From Sulfurimicrobium lacus (GTDB lineage Bacteria; Pseudomonadota; Gammaproteobacteria; Burkholderiales; Sulfuricellaceae), in the NCBI RefSeq assembly GCF_011764585.1, contig NZ_AP022853.1, positions 310,001 through 374,000 of the forward strand: DNA of 64,000 nucleotides, given 5' to 3'. The position numbers and the translations under genes are program-made. The notes under the pieces are model-generated. The model had not been told where the DNA came from. It saw only the letters and a list, made by a program, of their open reading frames with translations, and made no database searches. Position 1 is the stretch's first letter; each line of letters opens with the position of its first letter. Positions 634-37,323 of the stretch are shown here, in pieces.

Positions 634-1860
634 ATGCCATTTTCATGCCTTGCCGATGAGCTGAAACAAAGGGATGCGGACGGCCTGCTGCGCCGCCGCC
701 GCGTGCTGCAGAGCCCGCAGGGCGCACGGGTGCGGGTGGACGGCGAAGATGTCCTGTCCTTCTGCAGCAACGACTACCTCGGCCTCGCCAACCACCCTGC
801 ATTGGTCGAGGCCGCCTGCGCCGGCGCGCAGCGCTTCGGCGTGGGTGCCGGTGCCTCGCACCTGGTGACAGGGCACACTGCAGTTCACCATGAGCTGGAG
901 CAAAAACTGGCTGAATTTACCGGCCTGCCGGAAGCGTTGCTGTTTTCCACCGGCTACATGGCCAATCTCGGCGTCGTCACCGCCCTGCTCGGGCGCTGTG
1001 ACGCGCTGTTCGCCGACAAGCTCAACCACGCTTCGCTCAACGATGCGGCGCTGCTGTCGCGCGCCACGATGACGCGCTATCCGCACGCCGACCTGGCGGT
1101 GCTGGAGCGCCAGCTCGCCGCCTCCACAGCGAGGCGCAAGCTGGTGGTGAGCGACGCGGTGTTCAGCATGGACGGCGACATCGCCCCCGTGCCCGAGCTG
1201 CTCGCACTGTGCGAGAAATACGATGCCTGGCTGCTGCTCGACGATGCTCACGGCTTCGGCGTGCTGGGGAAAACCGGCCGCGGCGTACTGGAACACTTCT
1301 CCTCACGCCTAACTCCTCATCCCTCATATACGACCTTTCACGCGACAAGTCGCGTAGAAAGTCGGAATCCCCCGCAGGTGGGACGAATTATCTACATGGC
1401 CACGCTCGGCAAGGTAGCCGGCGTATTCGGTGCCTTTGTCGCCGGTGCGCCGGAGCTGGTTGCCTGGCTGGTGCAGGCCGCGCGCAGCTATGTCTACACC
1501 ACCGCCACGCCGCCGCTGCTGGCGGCGGCCTTGCTGGCAAGCCTGCGCGTGATCGAGGCCGAAGCCTGGCGCCGCGAACGCCTGGCCGAACTGGTGGGCG
1601 TCTTGCGCCAGGGGCTGCAATTGCAGCGCTGGCAGCTGATGCCGTCCGAAACGCCCATCCAGCCGCTGTTGATCGGCTCCAGCCAGGACGCGGTCAGGGT
1701 AAGCGAAAGCCTGCGCCAGCGCGGCATCCTGGTGCCGGCGATTCGTCCTCCCACCGTGCCGCAGGGAACGGCGCGCTTGCGCATCACGCTTTCCGCGGCC
1801 CACAGCGTGGTGGACGTGCAGCAGTTGGTTGACGCTCTGCGGCAACTGGAGAATGAATGA
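634..1860 (+). CDS. bioF: 8-amino-7-oxononanoate synthase with an in-frame repeat-encoded insert
   Basis: PLP enzyme of the alpha-oxoamine synthase family; condenses pimeloyl-ACP with L-alanine to give 8-amino-7-oxononanoate. Seen: the substrate-site SNDYLGLANHP (about residue 45), a GAGASHLVTGH segment (71-81), LLDDAHGFGVLG with the PLP-pyridine Asp (about 203), and the PLP lysine in YMATLGK (Lys260). Residues about 223-250 do not belong to the family. They are encoded by an 86-bp palindromic element (1299-1384) that also occurs in bioD, and they end ten residues before the catalytic lysine. At 408 aa the protein is roughly 20 residues longer than usual, which fits the insert. Its stop overlaps the bioH start (ATGA). 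All other motifs are intact, so it may still be active, but this is inference. Confidence 0.95.
   Translation: MPFSCLADELKQRDADGLLRRRRVLQSPQGARVRVDGEDVLSFCSNDYLGLANHPALVEAACAGAQRFGVGAGASHLVTGHTAVHHELEQKLAEFTGLPEALLFSTGYMANLGVVTALLGRCDALFADKLNHASLNDAALLSRATMTRYPHADLAVLERQLAASTARRKLVVSDAVFSMDGDIAPVPELLALCEKYDAWLLLDDAHGFGVLGKTGRGVLEHFSSRLTPHPSYTTFHATSRVESRNPPQVGRIIYMATLGKVAGVFGAFVAGAPELVAWLVQAARSYVYTTATPPLLAAALLASLRVIEAEAWRRERLAELVGVLRQGLQLQRWQLMPSETPIQPLLIGSSQDAVRVSESLRQRGILVPAIRPPTVPQGTARLRITLSAAHSVVDVQQLVDALRQLENE
1299..1384 (+). repeat. Palindromic element inside bioF, translated in frame
   Basis: 86-bp element aligning without gaps to 3537-3622 in bioD with about 9 mismatches. It starts with CTCCTCA-type heptads, then a hairpin (CTTTC-ACGCGAC / GTCGCGT-A-GAAAG around 1336-1362), then a second small hairpin formed by TCCCCC/GTGGGA around GCAG. 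It is read in the same frame as the bioD copy, giving a peptide with the shared core RVESRNP. Confidence 0.9.
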
Positions 1861-2618
1861 GCCTGCACGTCGATGTTCGCGGTACTGGGCCTGATCTCGT
1901 CCTGCTCCACGGCTGGGGCATGCACAGCGGCATCTGGGGCGGCGTGCACGACGAGCTGGCGCGGGATTTCCGCGTCCATGCCGTGGATTTGCCGGGTTAC
2001 GGCGCCAGTCCGCCTTGCCAGCCTTATGATCTGCCGCAACTGGTGCAGGCGGTGGCGTCGGCATTGCCGTCCCGGGCCGGCGTTATCGGCTGGTCGCTGG
2101 GCGGCTTGGTGGCGCAGCGCCTGGGCTCGATCCACCCGCAGCAGGTGACGAGGCTGATGCTGGTGGGCGCGACGCCCTGCTTCGTGCAGCGTCCGGATTG
2201 GCCCTGCGGCATAGAGGCGGATGTTCTGCAGAATTTTGCGCGCGACCTGGAACACGATTACGCCGCCACCCTGATGCGTTTCCTGTCGCTTCAGGTGCGC
2301 AATGGCGAGAACGTGCGCACGGTGCTGAAATACCTGCGCGAGGCCCTGTTCGCGCATGGCATGCCGGGTGCCGAAGTGCTACGGGCGGGCTTGAACATCT
2401 TGCTGGAAAATGATTTGCGCACGGAAGCCGGGAGGCTTGCCCTGCCTTTGTCGATCGTGCACGGCGAGCGCGACATGCTGGTGCCGGCGGACGCTGCGCG
2501 CTGGCTGGCAGCGCAGGTTCCGGACGCGCGGCTGAACATTATTCCAGGCTGCGCGCATGCCCCATTTCTGTCCCATCCGAAGGTGTTTATGCAGGAAGCC
2601 AGGGAGTTTTTTTCGTGA
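1857..2618 (+). CDS. bioH: Pimeloyl-ACP methyl ester carboxylesterase
   Basis: Alpha/beta-hydrolase that removes the methyl ester from pimeloyl-ACP methyl ester, releasing pimeloyl-ACP for BioF. The 253-aa product shows the oxyanion segment LLHGWGMHSG near residue 18, the nucleophile elbow GWSLGG (Ser about residue 80), the acid region HGERDMLVP and the catalytic histidine in GCAHAPFLSHP near the C-terminus. Length matches the family. The start overlaps the bioF stop by four bases and its own stop overlaps the GTG of bioC, so translation of bioF-bioH-bioC is probably coupled. The neighbouring bioC makes the BioC/BioH pimelate route complete here. Confidence 0.95.
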   Translation: MSLHVDVRGTGPDLVLLHGWGMHSGIWGGVHDELARDFRVHAVDLPGYGASPPCQPYDLPQLVQAVASALPSRAGVIGWSLGGLVAQRLGSIHPQQVTRLMLVGATPCFVQRPDWPCGIEADVLQNFARDLEHDYAATLMRFLSLQVRNGENVRTVLKYLREALFAHGMPGAEVLRAGLNILLENDLRTEAGRLALPLSIVHGERDMLVPADAARWLAAQVPDARLNIIPGCAHAPFLSHPKVFMQEAREFFS

Positions 2619-3517
2619 GCGATGTTTTGCCGACCGACGATCTGAAGATCGACAAGCAGCGTATGCGCCGTTCGTTCGAACGTGCCGCGGCGACCTACGA
2701 CCATGTCGCCGTGCTGCAGCGCACGGTGGCGGAGCGCATGGCCGAGCGCCTGCAATTCGTCAAATTCACGCCCACGCTGATGCTGGATGCCGGATGCGGC
2801 ACCGGCTATGCGCGCAAATTGCTGCGTGACAGGTATCCGGACGCACACCTGATCGAACTGGATATCGCGCTCGGCATGCTGCGCGTGGCGCGCGGCGCGC
2901 AGCCGTGGTGGCGCAAGCTGCTGCCAGGCGGCAGCGGCGGCGTGGATTACGTCTGCGGCGATCTGGACGCGCTGCCCTTGCAGTCCGCTAGTGCGGACAT
3001 GGTGTGGTCGAACCTCGCCGTGCAATGGTGCAACGACCTCGATGCGACCTTCGCCGGCGTGCGCCGCATTCTCGCGCCCAACGGGTTGTTCATGTTCAGC
3101 ACCTTCGGTCCGGACACGCTACGCGAGCTGCGCCAGGCCTTCGGCGCGGTGGACGGCTACACGCACGTCAGCCGCTTTCAGGACATGCACGACATCGGCG
3201 ACGCGCTGGCGCGGGCGGGATTCGCCGAGCCGGTGATGGACATGGAGCACTTCACCCTGACCTACGACGACGTCGCCGGCCTGATGCGCGACCTCAAGGC
3301 GCTGGGCGCGCACAACGCCACCCAGGGACGGCGCCACGGCCTGGCCGGCAAGACCGCATGGCGGCGCATGGAAAGCGCCTACGAACAGTTGCGCCGCGAC
3401 GGCAAGCTGCCCGCAACTTATGAAGTGGTCTACGGCCATGCCTGGGCGCCGGCAAGCTTGCCGGATGGCCGGCAGGTGGTGCAAATGCCGTCTTCGCGCA
3501 AGCGGAGTGATAGGTAA
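2615..3517 (+). CDS. bioC: Malonyl-ACP O-methyltransferase
   Basis: SAM-dependent methyltransferase that caps malonyl-ACP as a methyl ester so that fatty acid synthesis can build the pimelate chain. The start is GTG inside the bioH stop (GTGA). Seen: an N-terminal RRSFERAAATYDHVAVLQ segment typical of BioC, the SAM motif I LDAGCGTGYARKLL near residue 56, an acidic LIELDIALGML strand, and LPLQSASADMVWSNLAVQWCND, the family's motif II region. At 300 aa it is slightly longer than the E. coli protein. bioD begins two bases after its stop. BioH directly upstream removes the same methyl group later in the pathway. Confidence 0.95.
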   Translation: MSDVLPTDDLKIDKQRMRRSFERAAATYDHVAVLQRTVAERMAERLQFVKFTPTLMLDAGCGTGYARKLLRDRYPDAHLIELDIALGMLRVARGAQPWWRKLLPGGSGGVDYVCGDLDALPLQSASADMVWSNLAVQWCNDLDATFAGVRRILAPNGLFMFSTFGPDTLRELRQAFGAVDGYTHVSRFQDMHDIGDALARAGFAEPVMDMEHFTLTYDDVAGLMRDLKALGAHNATQGRRHGLAGKTAWRRMESAYEQLRRDGKLPATYEVVYGHAWAPASLPDGRQVVQMPSSRKRSDR

Positions 3518-3519
3518 CT

Positions 3520-4302
3520 ATGGAAAACATCGCCGACTCCTCACCCCTCACCCCTCACCCCTCATATACGAACTTTCACGCGACTCGTCGCGTAGAAAGT
3601 CGGAATCCCGCGCAGGCGGGACCCAAGGGGTTATTCGTGACCGGGACCGATACCGGCGTGGGCAAGACGCTGATCTCGTGTGCCTTGTTGCATGCCTTTA
3701 CCGCCGCGGGCAATAGCACGGTCGGCATGAAGCCTGTGGCGGCGGGTTGCGTGCCTGGTCAGGGGGGCTTGCATTGCGAGGATGTCGAATCGTTGCAACG
3801 TGCATCCAGTGTGCGCGCGCCCCGCGAGCTGGTGAACCCCTATGCCTTCGCGCCGCCTGTTGCGCCCCATGTCGCTGCTGCCGAGGCGGGCGTGACGATC
3901 GATCTGAAACATATCCGGCACGCTTATCTGGCGCTGGCGGAACTGGCCGACAAGGTGGTGGTTGAAGGCGTGGGCGGCTTTCGGGTGCCGCTCGATGAGT
4001 TTTCGGATACGGCTGACCTGGCGCAACTGCTGGATTTGCCCATAGTGCTGGTGGTGGGAATGCGCCTGGGCTGCCTCAGCCATGCCATGCTGACAGTGGA
4101 AGCGATCGCTGCGCGTGGTTTGACTTTGGCCGGATGGGTGGCGAATCGGATCGAGCCGGATATGGAGCGCTTCGATGCCAATCTGGAAGCGTTGCGACAG
4201 CGGATTGTCGCGCCATTGCTCGGCGTGGTGGCTTTTGCGCCGCAACCGGATGCCGTTAGAGTGGCACGGGGCCTGCTTCTGCCTTTGCTGAGCCAGCCGT
4301 GA
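3520..4302 (+). CDS. bioD: Dethiobiotin synthetase with repeat-encoded N-terminal extension
   Basis: ATP-dependent ligase that closes the ureido ring to form dethiobiotin, the substrate of BioB. The conserved protein begins at KGLFVTGTDTGVGKTL (P-loop, about residues 36-51), followed by MKPVAAGC and VEGVGGFRVPL. The first 35 residues are foreign: the 86-bp palindromic element also found in bioF lies immediately after the first codons, and no alternative start between the element and the P-loop keeps the first beta-strand. The element is therefore very likely translated. The gene begins two bases after bioC. No bioA is adjacent, so the DAPA aminotransferase must be encoded elsewhere or upstream of the window. 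Confidence 0.94.
   Translation: MENIADSSPLTPHPSYTNFHATRRVESRNPAQAGPKGLFVTGTDTGVGKTLISCALLHAFTAAGNSTVGMKPVAAGCVPGQGGLHCEDVESLQRASSVRAPRELVNPYAFAPPVAPHVAAAEAGVTIDLKHIRHAYLALAELADKVVVEGVGGFRVPLDEFSDTADLAQLLDLPIVLVVGMRLGCLSHAMLTVEAIAARGLTLAGWVANRIEPDMERFDANLEALRQRIVAPLLGVVAFAPQPDAVRVARGLLLPLLSQP
3537..3622 (+). repeat. Palindromic element at the 5' end of bioD, translated in frame
   Basis: Second copy of the 86-bp element in bioF (1299-1384). Here the heptads are regular (CCCCTCA three times), the main hairpin is CTTTC-ACGCGAC-TC-GTCGCGT-A-GAAAG, and the second hairpin TCCCGC-GCAG-GCGGGA is perfect. It is read in the same frame as in bioF and adds about 28 residues before the P-loop of BioD. Confidence 0.9.
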
Positions 4303-27443: not shown

Positions 27444-27564
27444 GCCACAGAGAACACAGAGTTCACAGAGAAAACCGGGACGGCGGAGAAGGACAGTTTC
27501 ATGGCCCAACCCGCAAAAAATGCAAAACACGCTTCATCTCTGTGTCCTCTGTGATCTCTGTGGC
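27444..27564. repeat. CACAGAG-type inverted repeat between trpE and ftsE
   Basis: 28-base arms at 27444-27471 and 27537-27564, each starting or ending with GCCACAGAG/CTCTGTGGC and built from approximate 9-base units, with 65 bases between. The right arm is the exact complement of the left arm of the copy at 37247. It may act as a transcript barrier between trpE and ftsE. Confidence 0.85.
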
Positions 27565-37246: not shown

Positions 37247-37323
37247 GCCACAGAGATCACAGAGGACACAGAGATATGGAGGATTCAAAGTTTTCCCTCT
37301 GTGTTCTCTGTGATCTCTGTGGC
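37247..37323. repeat. CACAGAG-type inverted repeat after ilvD
   Basis: 28-base arms at 37247-37274 and 37296-37323 with few mismatches and a 21-base loop. The left arm matches, as complement, the right arm of the repeat at 27537-27564 exactly. It could terminate or protect the ilvD transcript. Confidence 0.88.

Follow-up and report, generated by a model that had tools for sequence, protein, structure and literature searches.

Among protein-coding palindromes the best-known examples come from Rickettsia, which are obligate intracellular bacteria; REPs inside genes are known from scattered genomes. The Rickettsia palindromic elements (RPEs) go back to the work of Ogata et al., as cited in two later papers (PMC3733652 and PMC10969869); the latter paper gives their length as about 150 bp and their peptide as conserved. 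In-gene REPs were described by Di Nocera et al. (2013) in several free-living bacteria, where they occur in DnaE, UvrD-type and tRNA synthetase genes (PMC3733652). Tandem G-rich heptamers have been reported as well, GGGAATC in Xanthomonas and GGGGA(T/C)T in Nostoc (PMC4692102).

The repeats considered here lie in a stretch of 64,000 nucleotides from Sulfurimicrobium lacus (assembly GCF_011764585.1, contig NZ_AP022853.1, positions 310,001–374,000, forward strand), hereafter the window, from the start of which feature coordinates are counted. A first-pass annotation had described an 86-bp palindromic element in two neighbouring biotin genes, and its reading of the letters was accurate: positions 1299–1384 and 3537–3622 align without gaps, with 77 of 86 bases identical (90%) and 9 mismatches. 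A 23-base core, GTCGCGTAGAAAGTCGGAATCCC, is present exactly in both segments and nowhere else in the window, and no such pair arose in 100 shuffles. The palindromic parts alone are identical at 52 of 57 positions, and the heptad parts of the two blocks differ at several positions.

The bioF gene (8-amino-7-oxononanoate synthase; 634–1860, plus strand, as for all features below in this and the next paragraph) is intact and encodes 408 amino acids, with a TIGR00858 match of 466 bits, above the cut-off; this match consists of two stretches broken at residue 224, and alignments with homologues break at residues 223/251. The gene contains an array of four CCCCTCA-type heptads (1299–1326), which the arrays at this site in relatives mark as older than the palindrome, followed by a 57-nt palindromic insert (1327–1383; TATACGAC...GTGGGA) that codes for 19 residues, YTTFHATSRVESRNPPQVG, matches the covariance model (CM) described below with 72 bits and corresponds to an empty site in relatives. 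Within the insert, one hairpin is predicted at 1331–1364 (CGACCTTTCACGCGAC/GTCGCGTAGAAAGTCG), with a stem that covaries across the repeat family, and a second, imperfect one at 1368–1383 (TCCCCCGCAGGTGGGA). The protein reads SSRLTPHPS-YTTFHATSRVESRNPPQVG-RIIYMATLGK; the insert ends at residue 250, ten residues short of the PLP lysine (TLGK, residue 260), as first noted, in a variable-length stretch directly ahead of the strand leading to this lysine. A single-sequence AlphaFold model of BioF was poor (pLDDT 42.6).

The bioD gene (dethiobiotin synthase; 3520–4302), likewise intact, encodes 260 amino acids and matches TIGR00347 with 162 bits from residue 39 onwards; its insert forms an N-terminal extension, as first described. 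Four CCCCTCA heptads at the N-terminus (3537–3564), which have counterparts without the palindrome at the corresponding place in a related genome (G006), precede a 57-nt insert (3565–3621; TATACGAA...GCGGGA) coding for the 19 residues YTNFHATRRVESRNPAQAG, with a CM match of 72.5 bits and a predicted folding energy of −28.1 kcal/mol. Its two hairpins are predicted at 3569–3602 and 3606–3621 (TCCCGCGCAGGCGGGA). The protein reads SSPLTPHPS-YTNFHATRRVESRNPAQAG-PKGLFVTGTDTGVGKT, and inspection of the sequence found no in-frame ATG, GTG or TTG between the insert and FVTGTD. The presence of two hairpins after the heptads in each copy was thus reproduced by prediction (z = −3.4 and −4.8 against mononucleotide shuffles), and the translations agree with the reported common frame and shared RVESRNP core. 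Both inserts were read from the assembly; many of the other genomes compared below are MAGs.

What did not survive comparison with relatives was the treatment of the 86 bp as a single element. Aligning BioF and BioD with homologues, a check that the first-pass annotation had proposed, was carried out at the DNA level for bioF from 27 relatives and for bioD from those of the same loci in which a P-loop motif was found. The insertion points could be defined, and the palindrome was absent at bioF in all 27 aligned relatives and was not found in bioD of G006 or in the remaining BioD loci aligned. At the bioF site, CCCCTCA-type heptads occur in the same unit number as in S. lacus in three genomes (G006, G001, G016) and are more numerous or shifted in two (G002, G013), and 7-mers of other types are found in three (G003, G004, G005); the bioD of G006 also contains heptads. 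Both S. lacus inserts are exactly 57 nt long, add 19 residues each and lie at the same heptad position (CCCTCA^), and comparison with relatives indicates that the bioF heptad count was unchanged by insertion. Since relatives code the heptads in bioF and bioD without the palindrome, the block represents two separable repeats, 28 nt of heptads and a 57-nt palindrome, and the notion of one 86-bp element was rejected.

The heptads have a wide distribution of their own. In the 22 genomes of the host's family, CCCCTCANCCCTCA arrays were found in 16, with the reversed pattern nearly absent, and CCCATTN arrays in 12, with the reversed pattern common too. In S. lacus heptads account for roughly 0.05% of the genome by a rough estimate, and many of them occur as inverted pairs separated by a short spacer, apparently in intergenic regions. 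They resemble the G-rich heptamers of Xanthomonas and Nostoc (PMC4692102) in being tandem 7-mers (CCCCTCA, or TGAGGGG on the opposite strand) that are mostly intergenic and often paired in inverted orientation, but they are a different heptamer, are coded in bioF and bioD, and appear to serve as a landing site for the palindrome. On a Rhizobium gallicum plasmid the annotated hypC gene also overlaps a CCCCTCA array (NZ_CP017104.1:70992–71018); therefore, unrelated bacteria, too, can have heptads within coding sequence.

The 57-bp segments of bioF and bioD belong to a family of palindromic repeats dispersed in the genomes of Nitrosomonadales-type betaproteobacteria. Searching the element against its own genome and relatives, as had been suggested, revealed four copies in S. 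lacus, in bioF, bioD, the nif region (genome position 942487) and at the start of dacB (genome position 3183557), and a CM built from 18 copies gave 241 matches in 19 of the 22 genomes of the host's family, with up to about 40 per genome. Among genomes sampled from the host's order, 25 of 399 were positive. A search of 84,980 species genomes with an exact anchor pattern returned 85 stretches from Thiobacillus (including T. thioparus DSM 505 and T. denitrificans RG), Sulfuricella, Sulfuriferula, Gallionella, Ferrigenium and Methylotenera. The viral contigs, phages and plasmids searched contained no match, and carriage by a phage or plasmid was rejected. No Rfam family covers the element, the only Rfam hit being a sub-threshold chance match elsewhere. 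At the dacB-type carboxypeptidase gene (G000:C1:3183557, L031:2058–2113), the minus-strand element together with heptads appears to supply the ATG start (ATATGAGGGGTGAGGGG).

Units are usually 51, 54 or 57 nt long and comprise (R)Y-ATACGA, a long covarying hairpin and a short GC hairpin; tandem units are arranged head-to-tail at 53–54 nt, and the copy at dacB has 56 nt. In the structure-fitted alignment, with which a MAFFT-only alignment of the 18 copies agrees, 13 of the 15 stem pairs have changes in both partners, and pairing holds in 97.8% of cells, a level reached in none of 500 shuffles. Compensatory changes, for example among the outer stem variants CTTTC/GAAAG, TCCGC/GCGGA and TCCAC/GTGGA, preserve the hairpin while the encoded peptide varies. 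The idea that unit length is a multiple of three only within genes is no more than suggestive, the automatic length measure being noisy: by eye, both 54- and 51-nt units are genic as well as intergenic, and intergenic tandem units in G001 measure 53 nt.

To place copies in their gene context, 124 distinct ones were taken with flanks. At least 26 of these reside in genes with Pfam domains flanking or spanning the insert, and in every such host the frame is open through it. The Pfam-supported hosts include a hybrid histidine kinase, CheA, an FAD monooxygenase, a molybdopterin oxidoreductase, DnaE, a UvrD-type helicase, two Mur ligases (including MurE), MetG, Lnt, PutA, HypF, a P-type ATPase, Ppx/GppA, LysM/M23 and TPR proteins and, in Thiobacillus, PFOR. 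A stringent codon-usage test assigned 17 of the 124 copies to genes, fewer than the Pfam count, and the remaining copies in this test are apparently mostly intergenic or at gene edges; relative to coding density, as assumed here, genic copies are probably depleted.

Several of these genes can be compared with and without the insert. The kinase site, between the receiver and Hpt domains, holds one copy in G008, one in G019 and three tandem 54-nt units in G016. In DnaE, two genomes of different genera (G001, L241/L378; G018, L156/L384) share one 54-nt insert at one site, which is empty in the other aligned loci, and three more have inserts at other sites (G004, L395/L397; G015, L391; G016, L392). 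The PFOR of seven Thiobacillus-type genomes has an 18-aa insert at one site in five of them and at a second site in two, each group providing the empty site for the other group's insert. Intact genes with in-frame insertions and empty orthologous sites are thus represented by bioF, bioD, DnaE and PFOR. The dnaE gene of G012 (L386) carries a 19-residue insertion, YPLRASSARQPSEAWAVSG, at yet another site, possibly from a different repeat family.

In-frame insertion, dispersed copies and empty orthologous sites bear out the proposed parallel between this mobile-type protein-coding palindrome and the RPEs, which are also multi-copy palindromes found in frame in unrelated conserved genes, where they add an extra peptide, and in intergenic regions. 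RPE hosts are Rickettsia, and RPEs are described as longer and with a conserved peptide, whereas the palindrome of the free-living betaproteobacteria measures 51–57 nt, is read in several frames and has no conserved peptide. None of the NCBIfam hits of six host proteins is a model named for RPEs, and no rickettsial name appears among the 85 stretches with the exact pattern. The first-pass annotation had cited Rickettsia for protein-coding palindromes; the parallel stands, but in-gene palindromes were already known outside Rickettsia (PMC3733652).

With the GTAG/CGTC REPs of the same paper the family shares its short palindromes, its covarying stem variants and its location inside genes, including those of replication/repair and tRNA synthetases; it differs in the 15-bp bulged stem followed by a second hairpin and in the tandem 53–54-nt units. 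Its ends are ATACGA and a GC hairpin, with no unpaired GTAG/CGTC tag, and an internal GTAG lies within the stem and varies (CATAG, CGCAG) together with its partner. Y1 transposases do occur in the host's family, but no copy was detected within about 1.5 kb of the 30 best Y1_Tnp loci scanned, and a RAYT-driven system was rejected on these grounds. Target-site duplication, a hallmark of MITEs, could not be seen at those empty sites that are clear (bioF, bioD, DnaE). As for ends matching an IS, the one copy seen near a transposase, in a Thiobacillus MAG (L280:4394–4449), makes up the 3′ end of the IS transposase ORF; there is no second copy at the other end, and carriage by an IS was rejected. 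By analogy, the mechanism would be like that of RPEs and intragenic GTAG/CGTC REPs. Since the REP tag and RAYT association are lacking and no paper with this sequence was found in the literature searched, mostly without subscription papers, which agrees with the earlier statement that no such case is described, we regard the palindrome family as previously undescribed, although the type of element is already known.

The best overall explanation, to which we assign a probability of about 0.85, is a selfish REP-like DNA element retained where it happens to be in frame in tolerant loops. Replicated as DNA, the palindrome would move as a selfish element and would prefer pre-existing repeats, heptads or other palindromes, as targets; most hits in coding sequence would be lost, and inserts that keep the frame in linkers, surface loops or termini would persist and be translated. 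At bioF and bioD the palindrome would have entered a heptad array that was part of the coding sequence beforehand, at a tolerant position of variable length. The heptads predate the insert in both genes, and three of the four S. lacus copies lie inside CCCCTCA arrays, all at CTCA^ and in one orientation, although heptads fill only the roughly 0.05% of the genome estimated above; elsewhere, the repeat CTTCGTCGCTTTGCTCCTCG^CAATGAC would be a target (L153, L212, L242). We would propose only tentatively, and with some doubt, that an uncharacterised process precisely inserts single 51/54/57-nt units without a recognisable transposase or target duplication; their orientation relative to heptad arrays would be fixed, the targets would be repeats and palindromes, and certain core genes would be hit more than once (DnaE at several sites, PFOR at two).

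One could also suppose that the palindrome owes its spread to homologous recombination or gene conversion with heptad arrays as flanking homology, and not to its own transposition. This is possible, though the less probable view for the family as a whole, and for the AATCCC...GGGA subtype (bioF, bioD, dacB), which nearly always adjoins heptads, it is a serious alternative. Besides the three S. lacus copies, copies in G017, G013, G012 and G021 share register and orientation within arrays, and a strict count of orientation gave six forward and none reverse. However, many copies, such as those in DnaE, PFOR and the kinase, have no surrounding heptads, which makes heptads dispensable for spread, and the constant heptad number of bioF does not favour recombination either. 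Conversion restricted to bioF and bioD, which the first-pass annotation had raised, could draw on the distance of only 2.2 kb and the 52 of 57 identical bases; yet heptads pre-existed at both sites and differ between them, and over the first 45 nt the bioF, bioD and dacB copies differ by three bases in every pairing (counted by hand), the dacB copy being 2.87 Mb away. This equal divergence leaves local conversion unsupported, and we rejected it as very unlikely.

The selfish-element explanation was also weighed against a peptide that is useful, a modular protein tag selected to be read through. In favour of such a role, BioF, BioD and the hybrid kinase share one frame and have similar peptides, and inserts persist in several Thiobacillus species. 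Against it, in-gene copies are read in no fewer than four frames, of which 1 and 2 are forward and 0 and 1 reverse, the stem is maintained through compensatory changes that alter the peptide, and close orthologues lack the insert. The frame common to bioF and bioD is expected, since the two copies lie in the same register of the heptads, and is not special given the four frames in use; of the six frames of the consensus four are open, and about 35% of shuffles have four or more open frames. Therefore, of the earlier suggestion of a mobile element selected for read-through, the mobile-type coding palindrome holds and the selection does not, and a useful peptide seems highly improbable. Just as improbable is that the insert is missing from the mature protein, being spliced out, bypassed or part of a pseudogene or assembly artefact. 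A hairpin in coding DNA can be the sign of a bypass element; nevertheless, neither bypass nor splicing requires the open frame seen in every Pfam-supported copy, the genes are otherwise intact, and the family recurs in many independent assemblies. Judging from translations deduced from DNA, the insert would be translated as an extra 17–19 residues without a function of its own.

The hosts are free-living sulfur- and iron-oxidising betaproteobacteria, including cultured Thiobacillus strains, and provide natural before/after pairs of the same enzyme, among them the replicative DNA polymerase, so that the cost of the insert and its route of spread become testable. Unit length, often a multiple of three, and the liking for existing repeats may explain how the palindrome enters coding sequence and survives there.

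Nested arrangements were also observed. Some copies are enclosed by the two arms of another palindrome, CTCTCCCGC...GCGGGAGAGGG (L217, L224, L225, L228, L229, L247 and L248, in G018 and G010), and some of these are genic (Mur ligase, Lnt, PutA); others are nested in another conserved repeat, TTGCTTCGTCGCTTTGCTCCTCG^CAATGAC (L153, L212, L213, L242 and L243, in G005 and G004). The window itself contains other short periodic inverted repeats, all intergenic, at 541–605, 27536–27564 and 37247–37323 (AAGGACGCGAAGG..., CTCTGTGNN nonamers).
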